DNA from: Bradyrhizobium sp. LHD-71
Lineage (GTDB): Bacteria; Pseudomonadota; Alphaproteobacteria; Rhizobiales; Xanthobacteraceae
Direction: 5' to 3'
Assembly: GCF_031157255.1 (NCBI RefSeq)
Contig: NZ_JAVIFX010000005.1
Coordinates: 280,690 to 344,689 of the forward strand
DNA: 64,000 nt
Of this stretch, positions 8,744 through 57,569 are shown piece by piece. The notes below the pieces were generated by a model. The model saw nothing but the letters and a program-made list of their open reading frames with translations, did not search any database and was not told where the DNA came from. Each line of letters begins with the position of its first letter. Position 1 is the first letter of the stretch. Made by a program: the position numbers and the translations under genes.

Positions 8744-9972
8744 GGTGTGGCACCTGTTGCCTTATCGCCTGTCGGCGTTGCCATCGTCGGTGTCACTTTG
8801 GCACCGACGCGAGCACGCTGCAGACCATCGACGATGACATGATCCTCGGCCTTGAGACCTTCGCGAATAACCCGCAGCCCTTCATCGAGTGGCCCGAGCA
8901 CAACCGACCTTGCCTCCACGCTGTTGTCTTCCTTGACCACGAACACGATCTTGCGCGATTGATCGGTTGCGATGGCGGTGTCCGGGATCAACAGCGCCTC
9001 ATATGGCGCGGAGCCAATGATCCGGACCCGGCCGAATTGGCCTGGCAGGATCGAGAGATCCTTGTTTGGGATGATCGCTCGGCTGCGCAGCGTCGCGGTC
9101 GAGTCGTCCAGTCGATTGTCGAGGAAGTCCATCTTTCCATCATGCGAGGGCTTCGTCTCGCCGGACAGAGTTACCTGCACCGGGTTAGACGTGTCGCGAG
9201 AACTCGGCCGCTTGCCCTCGAACCACAGCTTGCTGTTGCGCTGATAGGTCGCCTCGTCGACGTCGAAATACATATAGATCGGATCGAGCGATACAATCGA
9301 AGTCAGTAGTGTCGCGCCGCCCTCGCTGCCCTGCACGAGGTTGCCCGGAGTCACGAGACGACGGCTGACGCGGCCGGCGATCGGTGCGGTCACGTGGGAG
9401 AACTCGATATTGAGCTGCGCAACCCTCAGCGCGCCTTTGGCCCGCGTCTCCGCGGCGCGTGCCGCCTGCAGCGCCTGACGGCGTTGATCGACCGATTGTT
9501 CGGAGACCGCGCTCGACTGCACGAGGCTCAGAGCGCGATCGAGGTCTCGCTTGGCAAGCTCGCCCTTGGCGCGCGCGTCAGCGAGCTGCCCCTCAGCTTC
9601 TAGTGCGACCGCTTCGAACGGGCGAGGATCTATGACGTAAAGCAGATCGCCGGCCTTGACGATCGCACCGTCCTTGAATGCGACACGGTCGATGAAGCCG
9701 CCGACACGAGCGCGGACCTGAACTTCCTCGATCGCCTCAAAGCGACCTGTGAACTCGTCCCAATCCGTGACGGTCCGCTTAACCGGTTGCGAAACCGTGA
9801 CCGGCGGCGGAGGTGGGGTGACCTGCGATTGCCCCTTGTCATCGCAGCCAACGAGCGCGAGCGCCAACAGCATACCGATCGGTGCTCCGCCGCACCGCGC
9901 AAAGTAGCGAAGCGAACCGCGATCGCGCCAAATCGCCGGAGCGCGATACTCCGTTGTGTCTGCCACATCCAC
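8740..9972 (-). CDS. RND efflux periplasmic adaptor (AcrA/MexA family lipoprotein)
   Basis: A 410-residue membrane-fusion protein. A lipobox (LALVGC, Cys near 43) follows a somewhat long N-terminal region, so it is probably a lipoprotein. Then come a proline-rich linker (TPPPPPVTVSQP), the first lipoyl half (VQVRARVGGFIDRVAFKDGAIVKAGDLLYVIDPRPF), a coiled coil (about 110-175) and the second half (VTAPIAGRVSRRLVTPGNLV). Start is GTG at 9972, with GGAGAG about 7 nt upstream. The gene lies 18 nt after the GMC oxidoreductase and overlaps the pump gene, so oxidoreductase, adaptor and pump form one operon. Confidence 0.92.
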   Translation of the reverse strand: MDVADTTEYRAPAIWRDRGSLRYFARCGGAPIGMLLALALVGCDDKGQSQVTPPPPPVTVSQPVKRTVTDWDEFTGRFEAIEEVQVRARVGGFIDRVAFKDGAIVKAGDLLYVIDPRPFEAVALEAEGQLADARAKGELAKRDLDRALSLVQSSAVSEQSVDQRRQALQAARAAETRAKGALRVAQLNIEFSHVTAPIAGRVSRRLVTPGNLVQGSEGGATLLTSIVSLDPIYMYFDVDEATYQRNSKLWFEGKRPSSRDTSNPVQVTLSGETKPSHDGKMDFLDNRLDDSTATLRSRAIIPNKDLSILPGQFGRVRIIGSAPYEALLIPDTAIATDQSRKIVFVVKEDNSVEARSVVLGPLDEGLRVIREGLKAEDHVIVDGLQRARVGAKVTPTMATPTGDKATGATP

Positions 9973-9990: not shown

Positions 9991-11670
9991 CTAGAATGTT
10001 ATGTATGAATTGGCCAGGACCTCAGCGGGCGTGACGATGCCGCCAGCGTCGTCGTCGTTTTGTGCCCGCGGGCTTTTTGTTAGCTTCAGATCCTCGACCA
10101 TCATCGCCGTGGCGTGGCGCGCAAGCGCCTGGGTCGGGGCGTTGGTGTTGCCGCTGGTGATGGTCGGCATGATCGAGGCATCGATCACCCTGAGGTTGTC
10201 GACGCCGCGAACCCTCAGCCTTGCGTCAACGACCGCTCGCTCATCCTTGCCCATCCGGCACGTGCCGACCGGGTGCCACATCGTGGACACAGTACGCTTC
10301 ACATATTCGCTGATCTCGGCGTCGGAACAGATGCCAGGCCCAGGCTCCTTCTCTTCCTCGATCACCGCCGCCAACGACTCCTGCGCCATCACGTTACGGA
10401 TCGCATGTACCGAGTCCACGGCGGCCGTCAGGTCTTCATCCTCGCCCATGAAGTTGGGGTTGATCAGCGGCATCGACGTCGGGTCGTTGTCGGCTAACCG
10501 CACCCAGCCGCGGCTCTTGGGTCGAAGCACGACGAGCTCGAAAGTGATGCCCGAGCGATCTCCCGTAGCTTTGAGGTCCTGGTTCGAGATGATGGGCGCG
10601 TGATAGCATTGGATCGTGGGATCTGCGGTGAAGTCGGACGGGTTCCAGTGCGAAACCGTCTCGATGCCGGTACCCGCGGCCGGGCCATCCTTGGTGACGA
10701 GATAGCGCAGGCCCGCCTTCACAGTACCGAGACCGTGCGCGGCGGCCTGATAGCCGAGATCTCCCTTCACATAGGCGCGCACCGGCACCATCGGGTGGTC
10801 ATGGAGATTCTCGCCGACTTCAGGAGAGTCCACGATCACCGCGATGCCGTGGTCGCGCAGCTGCTGGGCCGGTCCGACACCCGAATGCATAAGAATCTTC
10901 GGACTATGGACGGCGCCGGCCGACAGCACGACCTCTCCGGCCGAGATCGTCTCGAGGCCATTGTCGCTCAGCTCGACGCCGACCGCCCGCTTGTTTTCGA
11001 TAAGAACGCGAGTAACGGTCTTGCCTGTGAGAAGGGTCACGCGGCCCGAAGCAAGGTGCGGGCGTAGATAAGCATCGGCCGCACTGCATCGGCGAGCATT
11101 TCCAACCGTCGACTGCACGGGTGAGACGCCGATCTGGCTCTTGCCGTTATAGTCTGGATTGAACGGGAGCCCGTATTCTTGGAAGGCCTTAAGGCAGTAC
11201 TGATTCAGTTTGTTGATGCCCTTGGGCAAAGAAACCGCCAGACCACCATTGATGCCATGATAGTCGTCGTGGAACGTGTCGTTGTCTTCCTGCGCCATGA
11301 AGACCGGAAGCAGGTCTTCATACGACCAGTTGCCGGTGTCGCCGACCGCGTCTTGCCACGCGGCAAAGTCGCGCGGCTGACCGCGGACGTAGGCCATCGC
11401 GTTGACCGAAGAGCCGCCGCCGAGCACCTTGCCGGAGCGAAAGGCCTTCTTAGCGCCGTGCTGGGGAACTGTCTCGTATGTCCACACATGCCGGTCATGG
11501 GCCAACATTAGCGCAAAGCCTGCTGGAATGTGGATGAAGGGATCACGATCCGTGTCGCCTGCCTCGACCAGGGCGATCGAGGCATCGGTATGTTCGGCGA
11601 GATAACTCGCGACGACGCAGCCGGCCGCGCCAGCGCCAACTATGACAATGTCGTAGGCTTCCTCGGACAT
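9991..11670 (-). CDS. GMC family FAD-dependent alcohol dehydrogenase/oxidase (choline dehydrogenase-like)
   Basis: A 559-residue glucose-methanol-choline oxidoreductase. The ADP-binding motif is at the N-terminus (YDIVIVGAGAAGCVVASYLAEH), followed by the GMC signature regions (GGGSSVNAMAYVRG and a GAVHSPKILMHSGVGP type motif). The catalytic His region is in WHPVGTCRMG, and SGNTNAPTQALARHAT closes the protein. I placed the start at 11670: 70 in-frame codons upstream have no family similarity, while this ATG is followed at once by the FAD motif. It heads an operon with the RND adaptor and pump and has the shared upstream element at 11798-11841. The alcohol substrate is unknown. A wrecked fragment of a close relative lies at 12603-12695. 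Confidence 0.9.
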   Translation of the reverse strand: MSEEAYDIVIVGAGAAGCVVASYLAEHTDASIALVEAGDTDRDPFIHIPAGFALMLAHDRHVWTYETVPQHGAKKAFRSGKVLGGGSSVNAMAYVRGQPRDFAAWQDAVGDTGNWSYEDLLPVFMAQEDNDTFHDDYHGINGGLAVSLPKGINKLNQYCLKAFQEYGLPFNPDYNGKSQIGVSPVQSTVGNARRCSAADAYLRPHLASGRVTLLTGKTVTRVLIENKRAVGVELSDNGLETISAGEVVLSAGAVHSPKILMHSGVGPAQQLRDHGIAVIVDSPEVGENLHDHPMVPVRAYVKGDLGYQAAAHGLGTVKAGLRYLVTKDGPAAGTGIETVSHWNPSDFTADPTIQCYHAPIISNQDLKATGDRSGITFELVVLRPKSRGWVRLADNDPTSMPLINPNFMGEDEDLTAAVDSVHAIRNVMAQESLAAVIEEEKEPGPGICSDAEISEYVKRTVSTMWHPVGTCRMGKDERAVVDARLRVRGVDNLRVIDASIMPTITSGNTNAPTQALARHATAMMVEDLKLTKSPRAQNDDDAGGIVTPAEVLANSYITF

Positions 11671-11797
11671 CACTGTTTGTCTCTTTCGCGTTGTTTGCAT
11701 CGCCAAATGAACGACCATAGCCGCGGCGCCTTCGCGGTGCCTGGATGCCGAGATCAATTGGACTAAGTTCGGAAAATGACTTTGCGTGGCTGGCGAG

Positions 11798-11841
11798 GGA
11801 AATGACCTCTGGCCATGGAGTCGATAGCCGATCGTTATTGG
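11798..11841 (-). promoter_or_regulatory. shared upstream element, copy A (GMC/RND operon)
   Basis: Read toward the GMC gene this copy has ATAACG-ATC-GGCTATC, then GACTCCATGGCC and AGGTCATTTCC. It ends 127 nt before the start codon at 11670. It matches copy D (50189-50233) at about 41 of 45 positions. The ATAAC...GCTAT part fits the LysR-type T-N11-A box. Confidence 0.65.
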
Positions 11842-15781: not shown

Positions 15782-16211
15782 CGGAGTTGCAGTCCACTGT
15801 TTTTGGTCGCCGCATAATCGTGTGATTTCGCGGCTACTCCTTTGCGGCCCACGCGCGGCACGGCGGCTCAGCGCGTTAGAATGTTAAGGCGTCCACGTTT
15901 GCGCGGTGCCTTGGTCACAACCAGAATCGGACGCGGTGGGCGAAATTAGAAATTCCCTTTGGGTATGCTTTCGATAGGTGTGAGGCATCGTCGCCTAAAC
16001 GCGTTGGGCGCGCCGTTGCCCACCGCGATTGCAAATCTGCTCATTTCCGGATTGTCTCGGATACAGCCCCGGAAAGCGGAGGCGCGCTGTCGTTTGGACG
16101 AACGGCGACGGATTATGGATTCGCGGTACGGTCCGTGGACTTATTTTTCCGGCCGCGGCGGCGTCCGGCCCGCGGTGTTCTCGTTCGGGCCATTCAAGGA
16201 AGCGACCGTCG
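15782..16211. other. divergent intergenic region
   Basis: Separates the Tat-exported dehydrogenase operon (-) from the EgtD-like gene (+). An in-frame extension of the EgtD frame runs through 16029-16211 but has no family similarity. No clear promoter motif or repeat was recognised. Confidence 0.4.
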
Positions 16212-20467: not shown

Positions 20468-21505
20468 TTGGACGTGGCAGGCGAGCTGTATTGGCGTATT
20501 TCGCGAAAAGACCTGGACGAGTTGATGACGACTTTGGACGTCAGCTCCGTCAGGCTGTCGGAGTGCGCACTTGCGGCGGATGCCCACCTGGCGGTCGCCC
20601 GCACGGCGACGTCCACCATTCACTATTGCTTTCGAGGGACCGGGTTCATCCTCCTTGAGGATGAAGCGCCGATACGTCTGACACCACACACACTGGTGAT
20701 CGTTCCACCCGGGCGGGCGATGACAATAACGGCGGCAGCCCACCCAGCCACACTACGGACCGTCGGCAAACGGAACGGCAGGGACTTCACGCTGGGGTCG
20801 TTACAGCGGCACTCCGTTGGGCACGGAGCGCCAACGCTGGTGCTTGCCTGCGGGTCCTTCCGGGCCAACTACGGTCCGGCGCTCGACTTGTTCGCCTCCC
20901 TTGCGACGGCCGTCGTCGAGAGGTTCGACGTGCACGACCAGCTCGACCAGGTCATGTCCTATGCGATGGCAGAGCTCACTGCCCAGCACGTCGGAGGAGG
21001 AGCGATGTCGGCGGCGCTCCTGAAACTCGTCCTGCTCGCGTTGCTCCGGCGCTGTTTGGTGTCGACGAACCCTTGGGTCGAGCGCTTCGCGATATTGAGC
21101 GATCCGCCGATCGCGCGGGCGTTCGCCGCCATGACCTCACGCCTGTCGGTCCCACATACGGTACAGAGCCTGGCGCAGGCCGTCGGTCTCAGCCGGTCGG
21201 CTTTCATGGCGCGGTTTTCCGCTGCATTCGGAGAGTCGCCGATGTCATTGCTCCGCCGCGTGCGGATGCGTCACGCGGCGGACCTGCTTGCCGCCAACGC
21301 GTTGTCTATCGACCAAGTCGCCTTGAACGCTGGCTACCAGAGCCGGAGTAGCTTCACCCGCACGTTCCGCAGGTACTACGGCAGCGATCCGTCAGAATAC
21401 CGTGCCAAGGCGCAGCGTGCCTTCTCCGAAAGGGTAACTCCCGCTGAAGACATGATTGAGGAATCCGATGCGGGCGGACATCGGCCGGCAGCGGCAACAG
21501 CGTAA
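20468..21505 (+). CDS. AraC family transcriptional regulator with cupin-type sensor
   Basis: Up to 345 residues. The N-terminal AraC-binding/cupin_6-like sensor spans about 20-190 (VRLSECALAADAHLAVARTATSTIHYCFRGTGFILLEDEAPIRLTPHTLVIVPPGRAMTI). The C-terminal double helix-turn-helix is clear (VQSLAQAVGLSRSAFMARFSAAFGESPMSLLRRVRMRHAADLLAANALSIDQVALNAGYQSRSSFTRTFRRYYG). The start is uncertain: TTG at 20468, GTG at 20474 and ATG at 20525 are all possible. This subfamily is commonly tied to oxidoreductase genes of small-molecule metabolism. It stands alone between lon and the minus-strand stress genes. Confidence 0.88.
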   Translation: MDVAGELYWRISRKDLDELMTTLDVSSVRLSECALAADAHLAVARTATSTIHYCFRGTGFILLEDEAPIRLTPHTLVIVPPGRAMTITAAAHPATLRTVGKRNGRDFTLGSLQRHSVGHGAPTLVLACGSFRANYGPALDLFASLATAVVERFDVHDQLDQVMSYAMAELTAQHVGGGAMSAALLKLVLLALLRRCLVSTNPWVERFAILSDPPIARAFAAMTSRLSVPHTVQSLAQAVGLSRSAFMARFSAAFGESPMSLLRRVRMRHAADLLAANALSIDQVALNAGYQSRSSFTRTFRRYYGSDPSEYRAKAQRAFSERVTPAEDMIEESDAGGHRPAAATA

Positions 21506-24505: not shown

Positions 24506-25237
24506 TTAGGACGTCGACGCGGCCCGGCGCAAAGAGGACAAGATTTGCGCCGGCTCCTCCCGCACCGTGAAGTCGGGTTCGACGAACGCGCTGCGGATCC
24601 GACCGTCCGTGTCAATCACGTAGGTCGCGGGAATGGGCAGCATCCAGACCGGCGAACCGTGCCGCGCACCGAAGTCGAAACCGAGTCCGGAATAGTGCGC
24701 TTTGGTCTCGTCGGGCACCCGGAACAGGACGCCATATGACATCGCAACGGCGTAGTCGACGTCGGAGAGCACCTTCAGCTCCAATCCCAGGCTTTGCTTG
24801 AGCTGCCGCGGAAAATGCCTCGTCTCGGGTGTCACGACCGCGAGAGTTGCGCCGAGGTTCTCGAACTCATCCTTCGCGGCTTGGAGGGCGCACAGCTCTG
24901 CGGTGCAGAATGGGCACCAGCCGCCTCGGAAGAAACTCAGGACGAGCGGGCCGTTTCGACGCAGCTGCTCAGAGGAGTGGAGGCGGCCATCGGCGTCCGG
25001 CAGGAGGAAGTCCGGGGCGGTATCTCCGACGTTCAACGCGTATGATGCCACGCCTGTATCGCGCAGCCAGCCTACGAGATGGTTGTATGACTCCCAGTCC
25101 GCGGGGCTAAATGTCGCCAACAGCTCAGAGCGAATCTGGGCGAATGTCTTGTCGATCTGGTTTGGCCTCGGCGAGGCGTCAGACTGCGGATCGATTGGTT
25201 GGAAATGGTTGGCGGGTGGCGTGCGTGTCGCGGTCAT
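24506..25237 (-). CDS. peroxiredoxin-like AhpC/TSA family protein (paralogue 1)
   Basis: A 243-residue thioredoxin-fold protein. An N-terminal helical extension (about 1-65) precedes the AhpC/TSA domain (VGDTAPDFLLPDADGRLHSSEQL). The active-site motif is FFRGGWCPFCTAEL, with cysteines near 112 and 115. The ending (MLPIPATYVIDTDGRIRSAFVEPDFTVREEP) is typical of the peroxiredoxin-like family. Thiol peroxidase activity is presumed. The ATG overlaps the LysR stop by 4 nt, so it is co-translated with that regulator. Two other paralogues (29577, 53893) have motifs RWCPYC and MWCQAC. Confidence 0.85.
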   Translation of the reverse strand: MTATRTPPANHFQPIDPQSDASPRPNQIDKTFAQIRSELLATFSPADWESYNHLVGWLRDTGVASYALNVGDTAPDFLLPDADGRLHSSEQLRRNGPLVLSFFRGGWCPFCTAELCALQAAKDEFENLGATLAVVTPETRHFPRQLKQSLGLELKVLSDVDYAVAMSYGVLFRVPDETKAHYSGLGFDFGARHGSPVWMLPIPATYVIDTDGRIRSAFVEPDFTVREEPAQILSSLRRAASTS

Positions 25238-26169
25238 GCTGACGCGCTCGCCACTTCCGAAAACGTTTCTTGCGGCGTGCCTCGATGGCGAACTTCGATC
25301 GACCAGTCGCGAAGCCGGGCGACCTTGACGAAAGCGTCTAGCGCAGGCGAGTAGCGGCGCCCCTGCACAGCCAGCAACCGGACTTCCCGAGAAACCTGAT
25401 CACCTTCGAGCGGAATGGTTTTGAGCATCGGAAGGCGCGGCATGTGCTCGGGCGCGAGTATCACGCCGAAGCCAGCCGCCGCCATGTGCTGCAGGTGCAA
25501 GTCATGACCACTGCAGTGGCCGAAGCGGGGCGGTTGCTCAGGAAAATACGACCGCTTTATCTTTGGGGCGACGTCGCATCCGGATCGATCCAGCAAGACA
25601 GTCTCTTGGAGGTCGTCGATGCCGATCGAGGGACGGTTGGCCAGCTTGTGTGTCGGCGCGAGAACCGCGACGTAGCGTTCCTCAAACAGCGACCAATCGT
25701 CGATTCGGGGGGGTATGTCCCGCACGTCCCCGACCACTGCGGCGTTGATCTCCCCCTCAAGCAAGAGGTCGACGAGTTTTTCCGCTGCGCCCTCGCGCAG
25801 TTCGACTTGAAGTCCAGGTACGAACCTCGCAATCTCTGCGATCGGATCGAGGACGAGCGATGCCGAGATCGTTGGGGCGAGGCCGATCTTGAGCGGCGCG
25901 ACCTCCTTGCGTTGGAACTCCTTCGCTCTGCGACGCACCGCCTCTGCCGACGCCAGCGTGCGTTCCAGCATCGGAAGGACTTCCTTTCCGAGATCGGTGA
26001 GCTGCGTCAATTGGCGCTCGCGGTAGAGCAACTGCCCGCCGAGCTCCTGCTCAAGCTTCTGCACCCCCTTGGTTAGGGCCGGCTGCGTAACATTGCACTG
26101 CTCGGCCGCGCGAGTGAAGTTGAGCGTGGACGCGACCGCGAGGAAGTAGCGGACTTGATGAAGCTCCAT
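25234..26169 (-). CDS. LysR family transcriptional regulator (1)
   Basis: A 311-residue LTTR. The winged helix-turn-helix is at the N-terminus (MELHQVRYFLAVASTLNFTRAAEQCNVTQPALTKGVQKLEQELGGQLLYRERQLTQLTDLGKEVLP), followed by the periplasmic-binding-like effector domain. I use the ATG at 26169 (GGAG 8 nt upstream); the longer upstream frame is not LysR sequence. It is divergent from iorAB and co-translated with the peroxiredoxin-like gene, so it likely controls one or both. A T-N11-A-like site (CAT at 26242, ATG at 26256) lies in the divergent gap. Confidence 0.92.
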   Translation of the reverse strand: MELHQVRYFLAVASTLNFTRAAEQCNVTQPALTKGVQKLEQELGGQLLYRERQLTQLTDLGKEVLPMLERTLASAEAVRRRAKEFQRKEVAPLKIGLAPTISASLVLDPIAEIARFVPGLQVELREGAAEKLVDLLLEGEINAAVVGDVRDIPPRIDDWSLFEERYVAVLAPTHKLANRPSIGIDDLQETVLLDRSGCDVAPKIKRSYFPEQPPRFGHCSGHDLHLQHMAAAGFGVILAPEHMPRLPMLKTIPLEGDQVSREVRLLAVQGRRYSPALDAFVKVARLRDWSIEVRHRGTPQETFSEVASASA

Positions 26170-30355: not shown

Positions 30356-31306
30356 TTATGCCGTCTTTCCCGCGCCCGTCTTTGGCATGGAGAGTTTGCG
30401 TAGATCGGCCGCTAGCGACTTGCGCAGTCGAGACGCAGCGAACTCCATGAAACGCCGCAGCTTGAGGGGCAGGAGCGCCTGTCCCGCATGCACCAGGTGC
30501 ACCGGGATCGGGTCTGGCTCGTAGTCCTGCAGGATGAGCCTAAGCTTGCCCTCGGCCACTGCGCGCGCGACCTGGTAGGAGAACACGTTCGTCACGCCGA
30601 CGCCCGCGATCGCCGCGTCGATCGCGGACTCCGCCGTGTTGATCTTCAGTCGGCAGTAAGGACGAACGCTCTTGGTCGACTTGCCGCGCGGGTTGAAGAT
30701 CCATGTCATCCCGGACGCCAGGGCGGTGTACGTCACGCACATGTGTTCGGCCAGGTCCTCGGGCGTTTTGGGGACGCCGTGAGAAGCGAAATAGTCAGGG
30801 CTGCCGCACACCACGCGCCTGATCTCGCCTACCTTCGTCGCGATGAACGTGCTGTCGGACAGCGTACCGATGCGGACGGCCAGGTCGACGTGCTCGTCGA
30901 TAATGTTGATCGTGTGGTCGGTGAGCGTCAGCTGAACACTGATCTGCGCGAACCGCGCGAGGAATTCGTTTACGACCGGTACGACGTGGAGGCGACCGAA
31001 AACGATCGGCGCCGCCATCGAGAGTGTACCGCGCGGAACCGTGTACTCCCCGGAAGCCTGAGATTCAGCCTCCTCGACCTGTTCCAGGATGCGTTTGCAG
31101 GCGGTGACGTAGGCGAGCCCCGCTTCGGTCAGAGACAGCTTCCGCGTCGATCGGACCAGAAGCTGGGTGTTGAGGTGCGCCTCCAGCTCGGCGACCTTCC
31201 GACTGACGGTCGGTAGGGGAACGCCGAGCTGCCGCCCCGCCGCGGAGAAACTCCCGGCCTCGGCCGACGCCACCAAAATCGACATTGCTTCAAGTCGGTC
31301 CATCAT
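30356..31306 (-). CDS. LysR family transcriptional regulator (2), CrgA-like
   Basis: A 316-residue LTTR: MMDRLEAMSILVASAEAGSFSAAGRQLGVPLPTVSRKVAELEAHLNTQLLVRSTRKLSLTEAG is the DNA-binding domain. The effector domain has YTVPRGTLSMAAPIVFGRLHVVPVVNEFL, typical of the CrgA/YafC-type subfamily whose members respond to aromatics, aldehydes or quinones. A 33-bp palindromic operator-like sequence (31302-31334) overlaps its ribosome site and start. A closely similar sequence lies beside the related LysR at 38982. Probable autoregulation and control of the downstream peroxiredoxin-like gene. Confidence 0.92.
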   Translation of the reverse strand: MMDRLEAMSILVASAEAGSFSAAGRQLGVPLPTVSRKVAELEAHLNTQLLVRSTRKLSLTEAGLAYVTACKRILEQVEEAESQASGEYTVPRGTLSMAAPIVFGRLHVVPVVNEFLARFAQISVQLTLTDHTINIIDEHVDLAVRIGTLSDSTFIATKVGEIRRVVCGSPDYFASHGVPKTPEDLAEHMCVTYTALASGMTWIFNPRGKSTKSVRPYCRLKINTAESAIDAAIAGVGVTNVFSYQVARAVAEGKLRLILQDYEPDPIPVHLVHAGQALLPLKLRRFMEFAASRLRKSLAADLRKLSMPKTGAGKTA

Positions 31307-36899: not shown

Positions 36900-37162
36900 G
36901 ACGATATCCTTGCTCTAACGTGCCACGGCATAACCGATAGCGATGTCAACGTGCCGCGATCGGACGCGTCACCCTCATACGAGATGATATTCAAGCCCTC
37001 GGCATCGATCTCAACGGGCGGCATCTGTGCAGCTGCCGTTTTCCTTACCGACACGCCTTCCTGCTTCCGTAGCGCCGCAATCGACCCGCACCGCGCCGAT
37101 AATCTGACGTTCGCGAAAGCGATCCTCTTGCCGAGCGAGTTCGATCGTCTCTTAGGTTCCAT
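36887..37162 (-). CDS. hypothetical small protein, start overlaps ferredoxin-reductase gene
   Basis: A 91-codon frame whose ATG overlaps the last codons of the upstream oxidoreductase by 11 nt and whose end overlaps the ABM start by 13 nt, so it would bridge the two genes. It contains QMPPVEIDAEGLNIISYEGDASDRG, but I recognise no family. It may be the decayed form of the small DUF-type gene often found after sulfite-oxidase-like operons. Low confidence that it is expressed. Confidence 0.3.
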   Translation of the reverse strand: MEPKRRSNSLGKRIAFANVRLSARCGSIAALRKQEGVSVRKTAAAQMPPVEIDAEGLNIISYEGDASDRGTLTSLSVMPWHVRARISSCSR

Positions 37163-37898
37163 AACGTTCGGTCTTTATTGCGCCCGCCTTCAGTCCCAAG
37201 CCGAGCGCAGCGTCCGCAGCAATCTCGACGAACGCGTTCGACCCGCAAACGAAGACGCGGCCGGGGGACGCAGACAACCGCGCTGCGACGTCAGCGACCA
37301 TCGGCGCGTCGATCCGCTTGCCGAAGTCGGTAGGTCGCGTCGGCCTCTCGCGAGTGAGCGCCAAGGCGAGCCTGAAGTCGGACAACGAACTCTCGAGCTC
37401 GAGGAGCTCGTCCCTGAACAGCACGTCATTCCAGGTCCTGGAGGAGAGCAGCAGCGCGACGGGTACGGGTTCTGCGCTGGCCTTCCTGTACCGAATCATG
37501 GCCATCAGTGGCGCGACGCCGGAACCCGCTCCGATCAAGAGCACTGGGGTCTCGCTGCGGCCCGGCCAGAGAAAGTGACCACCGAGGGGGCCGCGAAGCT
37601 CGATCGTGTCGCCTACCTGGGCGACGTCGTGGAAAAACGGCGAGACCTCACCATCCGCGAGGCGCTCGATCGCGAGTTCGATCATGTCCGAGCCGCTCGG
37701 CGCGGATGCGATCGAGTAGCTGCGCATGGCCGTGTAGCCATCGGGCGCAGTCAGGCGGATGTCGACGTGCTGACCCGCCTTGTAGTCGAACCGTTGTGTC
37801 AGGCGCAGGAAAAAGCTCTTGATGGTCGGCGTTCTTGCCACGATCTCGTCAATCGTGCACCTCTGCCAGCGCGCTGCCGCGACGGCTGCATCAGTCAT
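37152..37898 (-). CDS. ferredoxin-reductase-type FAD/NAD(P) oxidoreductase
   Basis: A 248-residue flavoprotein. The FAD domain (FDYKAGQHVDIRLTAPDGYTAMRSYSIASAP, with the RxYS motif), GGHFLWPGRSETPVLLIGAGSGVAPLMAMIRY (NAD-binding GAGSG), and FVCGSNAFVEIAADAAL show the whole FNR fold. There is no 2Fe-2S domain. ATG 37898 overlaps the stop of the molybdenum enzyme gene by about 8 nt, so it probably feeds or drains electrons of that enzyme. The C-terminus ends ERYGT. Confidence 0.88.
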   Translation of the reverse strand: MTDAAVAAARWQRCTIDEIVARTPTIKSFFLRLTQRFDYKAGQHVDIRLTAPDGYTAMRSYSIASAPSGSDMIELAIERLADGEVSPFFHDVAQVGDTIELRGPLGGHFLWPGRSETPVLLIGAGSGVAPLMAMIRYRKASAEPVPVALLLSSRTWNDVLFRDELLELESSLSDFRLALALTRERPTRPTDFGKRIDAPMVADVAARLSASPGRVFVCGSNAFVEIAADAALGLGLKAGAIKTERYGT

Positions 37899-38496
37899 GC
37901 GTGTAGCGCTGTTCACGCCAGGGATCGCCATAGATGTGGTAGCCGCGCAGTTCCCAGAAGCCGGCCTCGTCGCGCTCCGTGAATTGAAGTCCGTTCACCC
38001 ACTTTGCCGACTTCCAGAAATAGAGATGCGGCACGAGCAGGCGTGCCGGCCCTCCGTGATCGCGCGGCAGCGGCTGGCTTTCGTAATTGAGAGCGACCAT
38101 TGCCTTCCCCGCCGCGAGATCCGCGAGTGGCACATTGGTGGAGTATCCGTCGTAGCAATGCGCGAGCGCGAACGGAGTTGGCGCGCTAAGGCCGGCGTCG
38201 GCGAGAATGTCGTCGATGGTAACGCCCTCCCAGGCGGTGTTGAGCTTCGACCACGCAGTCACGCAATGGATGTCTCGCGTCATCCTGGTTCGCGGAAGTG
38301 CATTGAACTCCGACCAACTCCAGACCTTGATCGGCCGAGGTCCAACCTTCAGCGTGAAAGTCCAGTCAGCGGGCTCGATCCGTGGCGTGGGGCCGGCCGT
38401 AAGCACCGGGAAATTCTCCACGAGGTGCTGTCCAGGCGGGATCCGATCCGATAGATCTGATCCCGAGTTGCGACCGGTGAAACCGCGAGTAGCCAT
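37891..38496 (-). CDS. sulfite-oxidase-like molybdopterin-dependent oxidoreductase
   Basis: A 201-residue protein of the oxidoreductase molybdopterin-binding (sulfite oxidase/YedY core) family. DIHCVTAWSKLNTAWEGVTIDDILADAG contains the Mo-ligand Cys; PRDHGGPARLLVPHLYFWKSAKWVNGLQF and GYHIYGDPWREQRY follow. No Tat signal is visible, unlike MsrP/YedY, so a cytoplasmic enzyme is likely. It is coupled to a ferredoxin reductase. Shared element copy B lies 94 nt upstream of the start. It heads the operon running down to 36213 and possibly 35556. Confidence 0.88.
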   Translation of the reverse strand: MATRGFTGRNSGSDLSDRIPPGQHLVENFPVLTAGPTPRIEPADWTFTLKVGPRPIKVWSWSEFNALPRTRMTRDIHCVTAWSKLNTAWEGVTIDDILADAGLSAPTPFALAHCYDGYSTNVPLADLAAGKAMVALNYESQPLPRDHGGPARLLVPHLYFWKSAKWVNGLQFTERDEAGFWELRGYHIYGDPWREQRYTHD

Positions 38497-38590
38497 GGCG
38501 GATATCCTCTGTCGGCGGTTGAAAGGGGCGTCGTCCGGCTCCGCGGATGAGCATGAAACCGGCGAAACATGAAATGTTGCGCGGCGAATG

Positions 38591-38637
38591 GGAAATGACG
38601 TGAGGCCATGAAGTTGATAGCCGCACGTTATGGTGGC
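38591..38637 (-). promoter_or_regulatory. shared upstream element, copy B (sulfite-oxidase-like operon)
   Basis: Toward the gene: ATAACG-TGC-GGCTATC, AACTTCATGGCC, then CGTCATTTCCC, ending 94 nt before the start at 38496. Similarity to copy C continues past the core (TTGCCGCGC versus TCGCCGCGC). Confidence 0.65.
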
Positions 38638-38903: not shown

Positions 38904-38981
38904 TCCATTGAGGTAAAACTATCATATCGATAACCGCGCGGAGTGCGACGCTCTCGCGTCGATTCCTTGGCCGTTACCGTC

Positions 38982-39866
38982 CTAGTGCGCGCGGAGCTCC
39001 CTGAGAAGGAAGTCGGTAAATGCGCGGGCGGCAGGCTTTATTGTCTTTCCGCTCACGAAGACCGCGTTCAGCTCCTGCGAGCCGAAATCCCAGTCAGGCA
39101 ACACCCGCACGAGCTTGCCGGCGTCAAGCTCTGCTCGCGCGCTGTTCTCGCTCGACGCTGCGATCCCCAACCCGGCGACCGCGCTTGCCGTGGCGACTTC
39201 GTTCGTGGTGATCGAGAGCGGGCTGTCAACCCGCACGGAGGTGACGCGACCGCCCTTGCGGAAGGAGAACGTCGGTGAGGGATGCGCCGGACTGATGATC
39301 ACAGTGTGGTGCGTGAGGTCCGACGGCATCGTCGGCATGCCGCGCTCCCGCAAGTAGTCGGGAGAGGCCGTGAGTATCCTTGGCTGGTGGATGATCTTGC
39401 GGGCAGTCGCGCTCGAGTCGGGGAGGGGGCCGAACTGGAACGACACGTCGAGGCCCTCAGTCACGAGGTCTGGGTAGCGGTCAGTCGGCCGGAGCTCGAT
39501 CTTGAGAGCAGGGTGCTGCTTCATGAACGCGGGAAGCCGCGGGACGATTTCCCTGAGCCCGAAACTGATTGGCGTGCCGACCCGCAGCGAGCCGCGCAGC
39601 TCTCCCGTTCCGCGCGCCTCGTGGTCGGCCTCGTCGAGCGCCGCCAGGATCGCCTCAACGCGCATGAGGTACGTCGTGCCGGCGTCGGTCAGCGTCACCG
39701 CCCGGGTGGTGCGGCTGAAGAGCGTCGTGCCGACCTCCTCCTCGAGGGCAGCGATCAGCCTGGATGCGGTCGGCTGCGACAGGCCGAGCTCTCGGCCGGC
39801 ACTGGAGAAGTTGCCGACGCGCGCGGCGCGGGCAAACAGCCTGAGTGCTGAGAGTCGATCGTTCAT
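38982..39866 (-). CDS. LysR family transcriptional regulator (3), CrgA-like
   Basis: A 294-residue LTTR: MNDRLSALRLFARAARVGNFSSAGRELGLSQPTASRLIAALEEEVGTTLFSRTTRAVTLTDAG, then GELRGSLRVGTPISFGLREIVPRLPAFM. It belongs to the same subfamily as LysR 2 (30356), and a 33-bp operator shared with LysR 2 lies upstream (40127-40159). A small membrane-protein gene (39889-40044) precedes it by 22 nt on the same strand, so the two are probably co-transcribed. Confidence 0.92.
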   Translation of the reverse strand: MNDRLSALRLFARAARVGNFSSAGRELGLSQPTASRLIAALEEEVGTTLFSRTTRAVTLTDAGTTYLMRVEAILAALDEADHEARGTGELRGSLRVGTPISFGLREIVPRLPAFMKQHPALKIELRPTDRYPDLVTEGLDVSFQFGPLPDSSATARKIIHQPRILTASPDYLRERGMPTMPSDLTHHTVIISPAHPSPTFSFRKGGRVTSVRVDSPLSITTNEVATASAVAGLGIAASSENSARAELDAGKLVRVLPDWDFGSQELNAVFVSGKTIKPAARAFTDFLLRELRAH

Positions 39867-39888
39867 CGCTTGCCGCGGTCGCCGTGCG

Positions 39889-47557: not shown

Positions 47558-48049
47558 TCAGTCCAAGTAAGTGGTCAATGTCGCGCCGTCGTCAGCCACG
47601 AAGATCGCTATCAACTCCGCAGGCTCGGTCGTGCTGGCGTTTGCCGAAACAACATGCGTTGCGCCCGGAGGTTCAAAAAATGATTGCCCAACCGTGAACG
47701 TCTGCAAAGGACCACCGCCAAGCTGCGAACGTATTTCGCCCTTTGTGATATAGGCTGTTACTGTACCGGCGTGCCGATGTGGCGGAGTAAAGCCTCCAGG
47801 GCCGTAGACCACGCGGACCACGGTGACACGCTTCCCGGGAATGTCAGCTAACGGATAGGATGCGACGACTTCAACAGACGAACCCGGAGAATTTGCGGTG
47901 CTGCAAAACGGCGTCAGGATCGTTGACGCCGCATCCATGGTGGCCGGAAGGGCCTTGGCAACAGCGAGCGCACAAGCAAGCCCTGCAACGAGCGCCAACG
48001 AGAGCATTCGAAAATCGTGGGACGGCAAGAATGTTGTTTCAGCTTTCAT
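47558..48049 (-). CDS. secreted cupin protein (paralogue of 3507-3926)
   Basis: A 163-residue protein: an N-terminal hydrophobic segment (LSLALVAGLACALAVAKALPATMDA), then a cupin with motif 1 in PPHRHAGTVTAYITKGEIRS and motif 2 in EPPGATHVVSANAS. The layout EPPGATH...AELIAIFV repeats the cupin at 3507. Exported by a signal of borderline length. Substrate unknown; no obvious partner except the downstream debris of the M50 gene. Confidence 0.8.
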   Translation of the reverse strand: MKAETTFLPSHDFRMLSLALVAGLACALAVAKALPATMDAASTILTPFCSTANSPGSSVEVVASYPLADIPGKRVTVVRVVYGPGGFTPPHRHAGTVTAYITKGEIRSQLGGGPLQTFTVGQSFFEPPGATHVVSANASTTEPAELIAIFVADDGATLTTYLD

Positions 48050-48103
48050 ATTGGATCGCCTCCAGTTCTGACTTGTTGGTGTAAGTCGATCGTCCCGGTG
48101 AGA

Positions 48104-49426: not shown

Positions 49427-49921
49427 TCATCCCCGCGCGTTTGGCCCGGTTTCAGCGACCGATCCGATAAACCGATAGATGTCGATTTCGAATCCATCCT
49501 GAAGGACCATGCCGTCGGGGTCGATGGCAACGAACCACGGTGTGCCACCGGTGCGGTAGTTTTCCATCGTGGTGGGATAGAGGCCGAGTGAGGAACGGTC
49601 CTCATGGCCGAAAGGAATCTTGAGGCCGTAACGCCGCTGGTCCAAAGGTAGCGTGTCAGGCGTATTGACCGACGAACCCTCGAATACAGTCTGGACTGCG
49701 GCGTAGGCGACACTCTGGCTACGTGGATCTTCAACCAGCGCCTGGAGCATTGGAAATCCGCGCGAATGGCAGCCGGGGCACCAATGCTGGTAGAAAAAGA
49801 GAAGCCGGTGCCGCTCGCCGAGTTCCTTCAGAGTAACAGGCGGGCATTGCGTTCCCTTCGCGTCGATCCAGTAGGGGACCTCGAGTTCGGGAGCAAGTTG
49901 TCCCGCGATAGTCTGAGTCAT
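49427..49921 (-). CDS. TlpA/thioredoxin-like thiol-disulfide protein
   Basis: A 164-residue thioredoxin-fold protein. It has the redox motif CPGC in FFYQHWCPGCHSRGFPML, followed by AYAAVQTVFEGSSVNTPDTLPLDQRRYGLKIPFGHEDRSSLGLYPTTMENYRTGGTPWFVAIDPDGMVLQDGF, with the cis-Pro in GGTPW. There is no signal peptide, so cytoplasmic. The N-terminal leader (LAPELEVPYWIDAKGTQCPPVTLKEL) is AhpC/TlpA-like. Shared element copy E lies 98 nt upstream of its start. Thiol-reductase or peroxidase function is presumed. Confidence 0.8.
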   Translation of the reverse strand: MTQTIAGQLAPELEVPYWIDAKGTQCPPVTLKELGERHRLLFFYQHWCPGCHSRGFPMLQALVEDPRSQSVAYAAVQTVFEGSSVNTPDTLPLDQRRYGLKIPFGHEDRSSLGLYPTTMENYRTGGTPWFVAIDPDGMVLQDGFEIDIYRFIGSVAETGPNARG

Positions 49922-50019
49922 GGATACTCTCGCGCAATTCCGAAGCCAAGCGAGGCAGGTACAGTCTGTTCAGTCTCGGACCGGGCCCCGGCACCATACC
50001 CGTATCGGCGTGGAATGGG

Positions 50020-50055
50020 CTGGTAAAGCTATGATCTTGATAGCCAGCGGTAATG
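50020..50055 (-). promoter_or_regulatory. shared upstream element, copy E (thiol-disulfide gene), diverged
   Basis: Toward the gene: ATTACC-GCT-GGCTATC, AAGATCATAGC. The core spacing and T-N11-A box agree with the other copies, but the AGGTCATTTCC block is lost. It ends 98 nt before ATG 49921. Confidence 0.45.
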
Positions 50056-50188
50056 CCTCAAGCGCCCGGATAGCCATGTGAGATAGCGATGCGAGGACGT
50101 CTCCCGGGCCGCCGAGTGCGACCCTTGGCGAATTGTTGTCGATCGCTGGGGCGCCTAGAGCCCGCATGCTCCAAACGCCCCAGTCACT

Positions 50189-50233
50189 CCAATAACGACC
50201 GGCTATCGACTCCATGGCGAGAGTTCATTTTCC
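50189..50233 (+). promoter_or_regulatory. shared upstream element, copy D (histidine kinase/NhaA region)
   Basis: CCAATAACG-ACC-GGCTATC, GACTCCATGGCGAGAG, TTCATTTTCC. It ends 102 nt before the GTG start at 50336, and is nearly identical to copy A. It points away from copy E, so 49922-50335 is a divergent double promoter. Confidence 0.65.
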
Positions 50234-50335
50234 TTTTCGACAATCATGGAGACACTCGTAAATCGATCGCTGCCCGCCCTGTGTGCGGGCCGAAGTCGAC
50301 GTTTCGTTGAGCGGTCGCGGGCCAGGAGGTCGGAC

Positions 50336-51397
50336 GTGCAAATCAGAGGGAAAACTGGCATTTTACAGCCCGATTCTGTTGAAAGCATTCCGCTAGAAGA
50401 TGTTGTCGTGCTCGTGGACAGGGCCGGCGTCGCGATCGGGGTGCAGCCCACATTCAGCGCGAGGGTGGGCGGCGTCGGCGACCGCGGCAGCACCATCAAC
50501 GCGTCCAGGTGGGTTGAAATTCCGATCGTCGGGTCAAACGGCGAGGTTTCCGGGGTCCTGTGCCACAGCAGGCGGGGGACCAGTGCGGGTTGCGCGATTG
50601 CCGCCAGCGACCGGGGGAACGTGAGCGCAACAACGGACGTCTTGCCGTCGATCGCGCATGACATAAACAGCCTCTTCGCGGTGATCGGCGGCGGTCTGTG
50701 GCTGCTCGCGTGCGAGAGCGATGCAGGATACCGAAACGTCATCGTCGGTGAAAGGGAGGAGGCCATCACCCGCGGCTTGTTGCTCAGCCAGCAACTTCTC
50801 GACCCCGTGCGGCCCAAATCGATCGATGAGTTGATCACAGGAAGTCGCCTCAGGGTGATCGCGGGAACCCTCGAGCTCGCTTTGGGTCCGGACATCTCGG
50901 TCCGCGTCGAGATCGCCCCTGACTTGTGGGCCTTCAATGCCGACTCGGAAGAGCTTTACTTTGCTCTGTTGAATCTCTGCCGAAACTCGGCCGATGCGAT
51001 GCCGCACGGTGGCGTGATCACCGTCGCGGCGCGGAACGTCGAACAGGTCTCCGCCGCAACGCGGCGGTTCGTCGAAATCGTCGTCGTCGACGATGGGGAG
51101 GGCATGTCGGAGGAGATTCTCTCGCAAGCCCTCATCCCATACTTCACGACAAAACCCCCATGCAGCGCCAGCGGACTCGGGCTCACCGAGGTCCAGCGCT
51201 TCGCCGATGCGCGAGACGGCGCGATCCGTATAGAAAGCAAACCTGGCGTCGGCACACTGGTGCGAATCTTCCTACCGCGTGCGGACGCAACCGAGCCCCC
51301 GCGCTTAGTTGTCGACACGGAGATCGCGTATTCACCGACACCCGAGGGCGGCGTATTCCGCGTCATCAACCGGGCGTTGGCTGCGCCGACGTCGTAG
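50336..51397 (+). CDS. orphan sensor histidine kinase with ATPase domain
   Basis: 353 residues from GTG 50336, which follows AGGAGG by 6 nt; an in-frame ATG at 50246 has no ribosome site. An N-terminal PAS-like segment precedes the H-box SIAHDINSLFAVIGGGLWLL (His about 108). The ATPase has N-box NLCRNSADAMPHGGVITVAA, G1 VVVDDGEGMSEEIL, F-box PYFTTKP and G2 SASGLGLTEVQRFA. No transmembrane helix and no adjacent response regulator, so it is a soluble orphan kinase. The DsbA-NhaA gene follows 31 nt later. Confidence 0.85.
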   Translation: MQIRGKTGILQPDSVESIPLEDVVVLVDRAGVAIGVQPTFSARVGGVGDRGSTINASRWVEIPIVGSNGEVSGVLCHSRRGTSAGCAIAASDRGNVSATTDVLPSIAHDINSLFAVIGGGLWLLACESDAGYRNVIVGEREEAITRGLLLSQQLLDPVRPKSIDELITGSRLRVIAGTLELALGPDISVRVEIAPDLWAFNADSEELYFALLNLCRNSADAMPHGGVITVAARNVEQVSAATRRFVEIVVVDDGEGMSEEILSQALIPYFTTKPPCSASGLGLTEVQRFADARDGAIRIESKPGVGTLVRIFLPRADATEPPRLVVDTEIAYSPTPEGGVFRVINRALAAPTS

Positions 51398-51428: not shown

Positions 51429-53297
51429 ATGAAGCCTATGATCCGGCCAGGCCGCCTCGACCGTTCGGTCGACCCGACAACAGACCACGTGCTCGGCCGC
51501 GCCGATGCCGAGATCAGGCTTGTCGAATACGGCAGCTACGCGTGCTCGCACTGCAGGGCTGCCAACGAACGCATCGCACAAGCTCGCGATCAACTTGGCG
51601 ACCGCGTTTGCTATGCCTTCCGCCACAGGCCGCTTTCTGACAACAGCCTTGCGTATCGGGCCGCCGAACTCGTCGAACTTGCGCAGACGCCAGAGGCGTT
51701 CTGGTCGGCGCACATCAAGCTGATGACGCGGTCGACGGAGCTCACGGAGGGTGATCTCATCGCGGTGGCGAACGACCTCGGCGTGGACGCCGACTTCGCG
51801 CGCGCCGACAGCGATGCTTTGAGGCGCGCAAGAGCGAAGGTCGAGGCGGATATCGCGAGCTCTCGCGCAAGCGGGGTGAGGTTTACGCCGACCTTCTACA
51901 TTAACCGCCGGCGCTACGACGGGCCTTGGGACGAGAGCTCTTTCGTCGACGCGATGCTCGGCACGCTTGGCCACCGCGTCCGTACAGCGGCGCTGGACTT
52001 CGCGCGTTGGGGTCCGTCCGCTGGCATCTTGTTGGTCCTCGCGACTTTGCTGGCGATCGTCTTGACGAACTCTCCGATCGGTCCGGCGTTCGAAGCGTTT
52101 TGGCACCGAGAGCTTGGCGTGACCGTCGGTGACGCTCACTTCCGGATGTCTATCCTTCATTGGGTGAACGACGCCCTTCTCACGAGCTTCTTCCTCGTCG
52201 TGGGATTGGAAGTGAAGCGCGAGATGACAGTCGGCCACCTGGCAAGTCGGCGGGCCGCTGCGCTTCCGATCGCGGCCGCGATAGGCGGCATGGTCGTGCC
52301 GGCGCTTCTGTATGTACTGGTCATCCCTAGCGGGCCCTGGTCATACGGATGGGGTGTTCCGATGGCGACGGACACCGCGTTCGCGATTGCGTTGATTGTC
52401 CTGATGGGCGCACGCGTCCCCGTCGAGCTGCGCATCTTCCTTACCGCGGCAGCTATCGTCGACGACATCGGTGCGATTATCGTCGTCGCCGTGTTCTACT
52501 CAGGAGACATCCATCTGGGCTACCTGGCAGCGGCAGCCGCAGTGGTCGTCGCGCTGGTGCTGCTGAGCCGATCCAAAATCTACATGCTCTCGCCTTACAT
52601 CGTGTTGGGCCTCACGTTGTGGGTACTTGTTCACGCGAGCGGCCTCCATGCGACGCTGGCCGCCGTGGTACTGGCGATGTTCATCCCGACGCGCCCGCCG
52701 GCCGACCTGGCGACTCTGATGATGCAGGCCAGCACTATCATTGCCTCCGAGGCCCGGCACGAGGGCGAGGTTCTCAGACACGGCCCATCCACCCCGGCGC
52801 TGCAAGCGCTCGATGCGATACACGACAGACTTGAATCGCCAGCCGACCGGCTGCTGCGCCACGCCGGCGCTCGCTCGAGCTACGCGGTCCTTCCAATCTT
52901 CGCATTGGCGAATGCCGGCGTCGTGATCAATCTGGACGTCTTCGCCGGGCATAGCTGGCTCATGGCCGCGATCATCGCCGGTCTTGCGATAGGCAAGCCG
53001 TTCGGCTTCTTTCTCGCGACAGCCGCGGTCGTACGTGCAGGCATCGCCGTCAAGCCGGAGGAGTATACCTGGCGCCAATTGGTTGGGGCGGGAGCCCTCG
53101 CAGGTATCGGCTTCACGATGTCGCTGTTCATCGCCGGGCAGACATTTCCAGATGCTACCGACTTCTCGGCCGCCAAGATCGCCGTGTTCGCCGCGTCGAT
53201 TCTTTCCGCCGTCGTTGGGACTGTCCTGCTCTGGGGAGCTTCGCCTCAGGAGCTCGTCGAAGAGGCGCCCGACAATGCGAGCATGCAAGCATCATAG
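51429..53297 (+). CDS. nhaA: Na+/H+ antiporter NhaA with N-terminal DsbA-like thioredoxin domain
   Basis: A 622-residue fusion. Residues ~20-195 form a DsbA/thioredoxin-like domain (ADAEIRLVEYGSYACSHCRAANERIA, redox motif C39-S-H-C42; GVRFTPTFYINRRRYDG contains the cis-Pro). Residues ~205-610 are a full NhaA: TFLL-type LTNSPIGPAF, LVVGLEVKREMTVGHL, MATDTAFAIALIVL, AIVDDIGAIIVVAV with the two catalytic-type Asp residues, and LVGAGALAGIGFTMSLFIAGQTF. NhaA exchanges sodium for protons. Fusions with a DsbA-like domain exist in alphaproteobacteria and actinobacteria; the domain's task is unknown. The start region lacks a strong ribosome site. Confidence 0.92.
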   Translation: MKPMIRPGRLDRSVDPTTDHVLGRADAEIRLVEYGSYACSHCRAANERIAQARDQLGDRVCYAFRHRPLSDNSLAYRAAELVELAQTPEAFWSAHIKLMTRSTELTEGDLIAVANDLGVDADFARADSDALRRARAKVEADIASSRASGVRFTPTFYINRRRYDGPWDESSFVDAMLGTLGHRVRTAALDFARWGPSAGILLVLATLLAIVLTNSPIGPAFEAFWHRELGVTVGDAHFRMSILHWVNDALLTSFFLVVGLEVKREMTVGHLASRRAAALPIAAAIGGMVVPALLYVLVIPSGPWSYGWGVPMATDTAFAIALIVLMGARVPVELRIFLTAAAIVDDIGAIIVVAVFYSGDIHLGYLAAAAAVVVALVLLSRSKIYMLSPYIVLGLTLWVLVHASGLHATLAAVVLAMFIPTRPPADLATLMMQASTIIASEARHEGEVLRHGPSTPALQALDAIHDRLESPADRLLRHAGARSSYAVLPIFALANAGVVINLDVFAGHSWLMAAIIAGLAIGKPFGFFLATAAVVRAGIAVKPEEYTWRQLVGAGALAGIGFTMSLFIAGQTFPDATDFSAAKIAVFAASILSAVVGTVLLWGASPQELVEEAPDNASMQAS

Positions 53298-57011: not shown

Positions 57012-57425
57012 CTAAGGAAATGTTATGCCGAATGCGGCCGGATCGGGCTTCTCGCCCTTTCGGGGAACCAACAAGCGCTCCAGCCCACCCGGCACGTAGG
57101 TGGCCAGCAGGGTCGCCTGGTCGCCGACCACCTTGATCGTATGCGGCACACCACGTGGAAGAGCCGCGTGCGCACCGGGCCCCACCTCGACGCTTGTATC
57201 GCCGACCGTCGCGATTAGCTTCCCCTGTACAACGTAGACTAACTCGTCCTCGCGGGAGTGGGTGTGCATCGGTGGCTCCTCCCCGGCTCGCACTGTCCAC
57301 AGGACGGCGCCATAGTCGCCTCCAGACTGGCTGCTTTCCACTTTGATCTCGATGCTCGACCCGCCGCTCGCGGTCATTGTCTCGCCGCCCTGCGGCGGTG
57401 TCAGAACTGGTTTTTTGACTGCCAT
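57012..57425 (-). CDS. cytoplasmic cupin (quercetinase-like) protein
   Basis: A 137-residue single cupin. Metal-site motif 1 is EEPPMHTHSREDELVYVVQGKL, motif 2 is LPRGVPHTIKVVGDQATLL. The start at 57425 has GGAG 8 nt upstream; longer in-frame reading has no family match. Shared element copy C lies 97 nt upstream. Function unknown; the motif spacing resembles quercetin 2,3-dioxygenase/pirin-like cupins of aromatic metabolism. Confidence 0.82.
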   Translation of the reverse strand: MAVKKPVLTPPQGGETMTASGGSSIEIKVESSQSGGDYGAVLWTVRAGEEPPMHTHSREDELVYVVQGKLIATVGDTSVEVGPGAHAALPRGVPHTIKVVGDQATLLATYVPGGLERLLVPRKGEKPDPAAFGITFP

Positions 57426-57522
57426 TTGTGGGCTCCTGATTATGCACCCTTGCTTGGGTGTCGCAGCAGCGACGAACGGTTGTCGCTCACACCCATCAGC
57501 ATGGAATTGCGCGCGGCAATTG

Positions 57523-57569
57523 AGAAATGACCTCACGCCATGAAATTAATAGCCATGCGTTATAATGGT
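57523..57569 (-). promoter_or_regulatory. shared upstream element, copy C (cupin gene)
   Basis: Toward the gene: CATTATAACG-CAT-GGCTATT, AATTTCATGGCG, AGGTCATTTCTC, ending 97 nt before ATG 57425. Confidence 0.6.

Follow-up and report, generated by a model that had tools for sequence, protein, structure and literature searches.

A probable OxyR-spaced operator-promoter element and a candidate LysR-type regulator in a redox-rich region of Bradyrhizobium sp. LHD-71

Does a short sequence that recurs before several separate transcription units of Bradyrhizobium sp. LHD-71 constitute the operator-promoter of a single regulon and, if so, which regulator reads it? The question arises from a 64,000-nucleotide stretch of contig NZ_JAVIFX010000005.1 (C5:280690-344689, the right edge being the contig end), referred to here as the window, in which a first-pass annotation described five copies of an element of about 45 bp. 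No published description of the element or of a corresponding regulon was found in the titles and abstract openings searched, a coverage that mostly excludes subscription journals. All five copies occur at the coordinates and in the orientations originally reported, and are distributed in the window as follows:

50189..50234, + strand: element of the A1 subtype, before the histidine kinase and DsbA-NhaA genes (box 1 at 50192-50206, box 2 at 50214-50228)
50012..50057, - strand: divergent element of the C subtype in which no second box is clear, preceding the gene for the thiol-disulfide-like protein
11796..11841, - strand: element before the GMC oxidoreductase and RND pump genes (boxes at 11824-11838 and 11802-11816; predicted -10 CATTTT at 11773-11778)
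38589..38634, - strand: element of the A2 subtype, before the sulfite-oxidase-like operon (boxes at 38617-38631 and 38595-38609; predicted -10 CATGTT at 38566-38571)
57521..57566, - strand: element of the A2 subtype, before the cupin gene (boxes at 57549-57563 and 57527-57541; predicted -10 CATGCT at 57498-57503)

The core AT[AT]AC[CG]N3GGCTATN6CAT[AG]GC has five occurrences in the window and none in 200 dinucleotide shuffles. No Rfam family matches the window at gathering scores. A profile built from the five copies has six matches in the 7.48-Mb genome, all of them on C5 between 235 and 338 kb (within 103 kb); the sixth (C5:234972-235016) lies about 46 kb left of the window, before a gene for a DHA2-type MFS transporter. 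A looser pattern with up to three mismatches gives 24 matches in the genome compared with six for a reversed control, and six of the seven matches with 0-2 mismatches are located on C5. Intergenic and start positions were taken from our own crude gene caller, according to which the window's five elements overlap no called gene and the next called start on the same strand lies 136-171 bp from the element start, in agreement with the 94-127 bp originally measured from the element end to the start codon. A second family (B, described below) brings the A and B copies to ten; by these calls every one is intergenic and is followed by a gene on its own strand, nine within 80-350 bp and the tenth at 468 bp, the chance for a random position being 5%. 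The genome-wide scan that the annotation had proposed as a check returns copies that are not scattered, each preceding a same-strand gene, and favors a single regulon, albeit one narrower than implied, since in the host genome it is confined to one region of one contig. The copy placed at 50020-50055 is present as well; it is weaker than its four counterparts and represents the divergent subtype, in which the second box is missing.

The A-type unit comprises two 15-bp inverted boxes, ATA-N9-TAT (box 1) and AT-N11-AT (box 2), separated by 7 bp and spanning 37 bp in total. The exact arrangement ATA-N9-TAT-N7-AT-N11-AT is found in 82 of 90 A-type sites from this and other genomes (see below), much of it, except for the last AT, having been fixed by the search pattern. 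Over the 90 distinct A-type sites, complementarity amounts to 100, 100, 98, and 89% at pairs 1, 2, 3, and 5 of box 1 and to 92, 100, and 93% at pairs 1, 2, and 5 of box 2. The CATGGC/CATAGC block of the first description opens box 2, and the conserved unit runs about 20 bp farther than the 45 bp first assigned to it, up to a -10-like hexamer (CATNCT, GATCCT) at positions 63-68, 17 bp past a -35-like TTTCCN. Of 101 A and B sites, 93% have an A at position 64 together with a T at position 68, while the next best A-N3-T pair in the tested stretch reaches 32% (these sets of 90 and 101 sites leave out an Enterovibrio match, L025, and sites too near a locus end). Three of the window's five copies (11796, 38589, and 57521), as well as the B copy (15946), have the -10-like box in place; it is not found at its usual place at 50189 (where ACACTC occupies 50252-50257) or at the C copy at 50012. 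In the C subtype box 1 is kept and the right half consists of CTTTACCAG where box 2 would stand.

Judging from the -10-like hexamer, transcription would start near position 75. Because this hexamer occupies positions 63-68, box 1 would be centered near -65 and box 2 near -43, a predicted arrangement that is typical of an activator. The element thus displays the 15-bp dyad, the T-N11-A spacing and, relative to the inferred start site, the location near -65 of a LysR-type operator, and A-type copies also carry AT-N11-AT at +22 bp, which the C subtype does not; a LysR-type activation box is expected at about this distance, in the vicinity of -35. A box 1 dyad kept in 89-100% of sites at four pairs and centered near the predicted -65 supports the LysR-type geometry initially proposed.

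The genes situated downstream of the window copies are:

9991..11670, - strand: GMC oxidoreductase, predicted target
8740..9972, - strand: membrane-fusion (HlyD-type) protein, predicted target operon
5573..8743, - strand: RND pump (ACR_tran), predicted target operon
37891..38496, - strand: sulfite-oxidase-like molybdopterin protein, predicted target
37152..37931, - strand: ferredoxin-reductase-like protein, predicted target operon
57012..57425, - strand: cupin, predicted target
49427..49921, - strand: thiol-disulfide-like protein (weak AhpC-TSA), predicted target of the C subtype
50336..51397, + strand: histidine kinase, predicted target
51429..53297, + strand: DsbA-NhaA fusion, predicted target operon

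Domain searches support the redox-rich character of these genes and additionally assign peroxiredoxins, MsrA, MsrB, and OsmC to other genes of the window. This gene content points to oxidant or electrophile defense, the kind of inducer being deduced from gene content only.

The exact pattern was run on 84,980 species genomes and retrieved 49 stretches from 33 genomes, which we take to belong to the Hyphomicrobiales with the exception of the Enterovibrio match; the latter lacks the second box and was regarded as chance. The element is present in more than 30 Hyphomicrobiales genomes and three rhizobial plasmids, where it precedes orthologous genes at a near-constant distance, the recurrence in related Rhizobiales that the annotation had suggested looking for. 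A total of 100 sites in 52 loci (the 49 stretches and three plasmid stretches) pass 22 bits, a threshold chosen by us, as were those of 17 and 20 bits in other site scans. The search pattern fixes much of positions 3-29, where conservation is partly by construction, whereas positions 30-46 and the -10-like box were left free. Average identity per ten columns in 22 histidine-kinase promoters is 0.90-0.98 over positions 0-49 versus 0.49-0.61 upstream; in 15 cupin promoters it is 0.91-0.97 versus 0.44-0.71, and in 11 sulfite-oxidase promoters, which are more alike throughout than the others, 0.92-0.99 versus 0.59-0.84. Conservation sets in sharply at the element and fades beyond the -10. Among the 99 sites of related loci (Enterovibrio left out), a homolog of some protein of the region could be assigned to 71, six are too near a locus end and 22 have no such homolog; the assigned sites include 23 before histidine kinases (median distance 147 bp), 15 before cupins (141 bp) and 10 before sulfite-oxidase-like genes (157.5 bp). 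Element subtypes track the downstream gene across loci, the C subtype being kept before the thiol-disulfide-like gene in other genomes, and some loci show divergent element pairs about 150 bp apart, as do the copies at 50012 and 50189. Among 101 relatives the element occurs in the own genome, with one further marginal match (E 0.007), and among 397 genomes of the order multi-copy elements occur in three (G000, G202, and G146), with one weak single match in G378, around which the 13 kb read contain no homologs of the region's genes. Both scans, each of more than 40 genomes, used stricter filters that lose weak matches.

Four regulatory genes of the window could account for the recognition of the element; they are listed here with the peroxiredoxin-like gene that overlaps one of them:

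25234..26169, - strand: LTTR3, LysR-family regulator, predicted to bind the element (best PDB match OxyR; Cys198 invariant)
24506..25237, - strand: peroxiredoxin-like gene (AhpC-TSA), overlapping the end of LTTR3
20474..21505, + strand: AraC-family protein with a Cupin_6 domain, rival regulator
38982..39866, - strand: LTTR1, rival regulator, recently duplicated
30356..31285, - strand: LTTR2, rival regulator

LTTR3 is encoded in 30 of the 32 element-bearing genomes searched (59-90% identity, E <= 1e-60), a set that contains Enterovibrio and leaves out the genome of locus L037. It usually occurs in two copies per element-bearing genome, some of which are only fragments at contig ends, and among the best 150 element matches 107 share a contig with LTTR3, at a median of 8.2 kb. 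The 101 relatives contain LTTR3 in the own genome and one 40% homolog. Across the 397 genomes of the order, LTTR3 with more than 50% identity and multi-copy elements are found in exactly the same three genomes, two 38-40% homologs occurring elsewhere (Fisher p 3.9e-7, with the weak G378 match counted as an element and genomes treated as independent). Among 72,556 plasmid records four encode LTTR3 (E <= 1e-60), and element matches below E 0.01 are confined to three of these; the fourth (55% identity) has no element, and the only other plasmid match, in Bosea (E 0.9), was taken as chance. LTTR3 occurs with the element and is absent where the element is absent, the exceptions being G378, the plasmid with the 55% homolog and G114, where a single element is present and LTTR3 is missing at E <= 1e-60. 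The region upstream of LTTR3 itself contains no A-type element.

Co-occurrence cannot by itself single out the regulator because island genes are inherited together. G202 does not separate the candidates either, since it also encodes an AraC ortholog (75% identity), whereas G146 does. In the latter genome three elements lie within 5 kb of the LTTR3-peroxiredoxin pair, before a sulfite-oxidase-like gene, a DUF3788/baeRF/zinc-dehydrogenase gene group and an RND operon, and the sulfite-oxidase-like pair is followed immediately by LTTR3 and the peroxiredoxin gene. No ortholog of LTTR1, LTTR2 or the AraC protein is present in the 60 kb read there, which include only one LysR gene that is 31-33% identical to LTTR1 and LTTR2. 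LTTR3 is the leading candidate and the likely regulator, and the other three fit worse.

The spacing of the element recalls a well-known system. The OxyR consensus is ATAG-N7-CTAT-N7-ATAG-N7-CTAT in PMC5720770, and like this operator the element spans 37 bp and contains four half-sites with the same spacing, although its half-sites 1, 3, and 4 deviate (ATAA, ATGG, TCAT or TGAT). The four full copies of the window agree with 12 of the 16 fixed letters, as does the Pseudomonas aeruginosa ahpC site in the table of that source (PMC5720770). With the spacing exact, 12 letters agree in 74 of the 100 sites, 13-14 in three and 9-11 in 23, while stretches scoring at least 12 occur in the region about 0.04 times per kb on one strand. 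The best PDB match of LTTR3 is an OxyR protein (E 1e-22), other OxyR entries being close behind. All 28 of 28 orthologs have Cys198, which lies roughly where OxyR has its redox cysteine and aligns with it exactly in one alignment and one residue off in others. The second cysteine (the OxyR pair is C199/C208) is not fixed and differs in position between clades: Cys219 occurs in 20 of 28 orthologs and a cysteine near 208 in five of 28. LTTR3 scores 87.2 bits against the NCBIfam OxyR equivalog, well below the cut-off of 329, and is scored higher by other LysR models, so that this would be an OxyR-like system and not OxyR. The AlphaFold model of LTTR3 is poor (mean pLDDT 46.8) and nothing rests on it. 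We infer that LTTR3 works like OxyR and shares redox genes as predicted targets, and that it differs in being island-borne and in having an RND pump, a cupin and a histidine kinase among those targets. In gene content the island may also resemble reactive-chlorine responses (HypT, RclR), as it encodes MsrA/MsrB, a sulfite-oxidase-like reductase and an AraC protein with Cupin_6. LsrB, the second cysteine-bearing LysR redox regulator of rhizobia, consistently adjoins trxB according to PMC11975290, while LTTR3 overlaps a peroxiredoxin gene; the gene neighborhood, as described there, sets the two apart.

Other readings of the element have to be weighed against recognition by LTTR3. Several other short repeats exist in the region, and an ordinary dispersed repeat, or a mobile cassette copied with its flanks, might look similar; this reading deserves hardly any credence and was discarded, as all ten A and B copies are intergenic and precede a same-strand gene, conservation has an abrupt onset at the element and declines beyond the -10, and subtypes follow the downstream gene. 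Position, conservation and subtypes uphold the earlier view of an operator/promoter of one regulon with LysR geometry. A regulator of the core genome (canonical OxyR or LsrB) could instead bind sites that the island merely brought along, given the OxyR-type spacing, the wide conservation of OxyR and the occurrence of LsrB in Rhizobiales (PMC11975290). Such a regulator would be expected in relatives, yet only one of 100 has even a marginal match to the element (E 0.007), which is also near-identical across genera before the same island genes; we regard this alternative as quite unlikely.

Recognition by the AraC/Cupin_6 protein, which would activate from the same position through an operator of two direct-repeat half-sites 22 bp apart, is unlikely but has more in its favor. 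The boxes can also be taken for a direct repeat with a 22-bp period, sharing their outer AT and their inner C/G letters, homologs occur in 29 of the 32 element genomes, several of which encode theirs a few kb from LTTR3, and the first HTH helix (LSRSAFMARF) is unchanged in the 20 homologs read. Against it, 17 of the 29 homologs are only 40-46% identical (the other 12 at least 59%), the HTH averages 60% identity in 13 homologs read versus 78-98% for the LTTR3 HTH in 27 orthologs, G120 has three elements and no match at E <= 1e-60, the 60 kb read in G146 contain no ortholog, and four of the six pairs of box 1 show dyad symmetry in 89-100% of sites, which AraC sites need not have. LTTR1, encoded next to the sulfite-oxidase operon, was the first suspect on account of the adjoining element, which it also adjoins in L034 and in plasmid pB2-1-1, and it is more than 80% identical in the same three plasmids as the elements; it was set aside as very improbable, since only 10 of 32 element genomes encode it with at least 72% identity (15 of 32 if remote homologs at E <= 1e-60 are counted) and the 60 kb read in G146 contain no ortholog. 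LTTR2 was rejected as well: some homolog exists in 31 of 32 genomes (E <= 1e-60), at least 63% identical in only 11.

A weight-matrix scan of C5:100001-344689 detected the second family (B), with four copies, at C5:250754, 263764, and 278892 and in the window:

15946..15991, - strand: element of the B subtype, before the gluconate-2-dehydrogenase subunit 3-like/GMC operon, with the -10-like box at the same position

B elements share the -10-like box with A elements and have a different core; they precede genes for a cytochrome P460, an IorA/IorB-like pair, a nitroreductase and carboxymuconolactone decarboxylase-like pair and the gluconate-2-dehydrogenase subunit 3-like/GMC pair. A regulator other than LTTR3 may read them, because the 60 kb read of G146, where LTTR3 is present and the AraC ortholog is absent, contain none. 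On the far side of B elements is a further repeat, TTTGGACGAACGGCGACGGATTATGGATTCGCGG, in three near-identical copies (window 16093-16126, + strand; C5:251166; C5:279068; L008 and L009), with a weaker relative at window 26304, between LTTR3 and a divergent IorA-like gene; it is possibly a site for another regulator, such as the AraC protein.

LTTR1 is duplicated 64 kb apart (window 38912-39881 and C5:254961-255931; 97.3% identical DNA, one amino-acid difference), and each copy is closely followed downstream by a stretch resembling the C-subtype element. The copy outside the window has, about 0.6 kb away, a fragment (C5:254313-254472) that resembles the peroxiredoxin-like gene linked to LTTR3 (window 24507-24666), seemingly a sign of past rearrangement. 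Short non-identical direct repeats (116-123 aligned bases, 76-80% identity) are present at window 47307-48421.

The set formed by the element and LTTR3 is absent from near relatives in the 101-genome scans, bar the one marginal match and the one 40% homolog, and occurs on plasmids of Mesorhizobium, Sinorhizobium, and Rhizobium. Near the contig end shared with the set, the window encodes a DUF3991/Toprim_2 protein (61875-62861, + strand), of a kind seen on mobile elements; it contains no tRNA that could bound an island. The set looks horizontally acquired, transfer being deduced from this distribution, and likely travels as a whole between rhizobia as an island or on plasmids.

Taken together, the element is probably an activator-type operator-promoter with OxyR-spaced boxes and, in most copies, a -10-like box at a constant distance, bound by LTTR3. 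An LTTR3 tetramer would occupy both boxes, box 1 at about -65 and box 2, which touches the -35-like TTTCCN, at about -43; its conformation would shift once Cys198 is oxidized, and RNA polymerase would then be recruited. Peroxide, hypochlorite, a quinone or another electrophile are candidate inducers, in response to which the GMC oxidoreductase and RND pump, the sulfite-oxidase-like reductase, the cupin, the thiol protein and the histidine kinase with DsbA-NhaA would be switched on jointly.

OxyR and other well-known LysR redox regulators are part of the core genome. More tentatively, at somewhat less than even chances, LTTR3 may represent a third cysteine-based LysR sensor of rhizobia beside OxyR and LsrB, at the head of a portable redox regulon that carries an OxyR-spaced operator of its own and is passed from genus to genus by islands and plasmids; newly captured detoxification genes would be recruited by acquiring the 46-bp operator-promoter, whose different subtypes would be tuned by two sensor clades that differ in where the second cysteine lies. 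The named sensor candidate, the exact operator and more than 30 natural replicates make this proposal quick to test. The LTTR3 system looks like a complete transferable defense circuit (sensor, operator, and effectors) common to Bradyrhizobium, Mesorhizobium, Rhizobium, Sinorhizobium, Afipia, Chelatococcus, and Devosia, and would provide a regulatory context for the poorly understood sulfite-oxidase-like reductase, cupin and DsbA-NhaA fusion.
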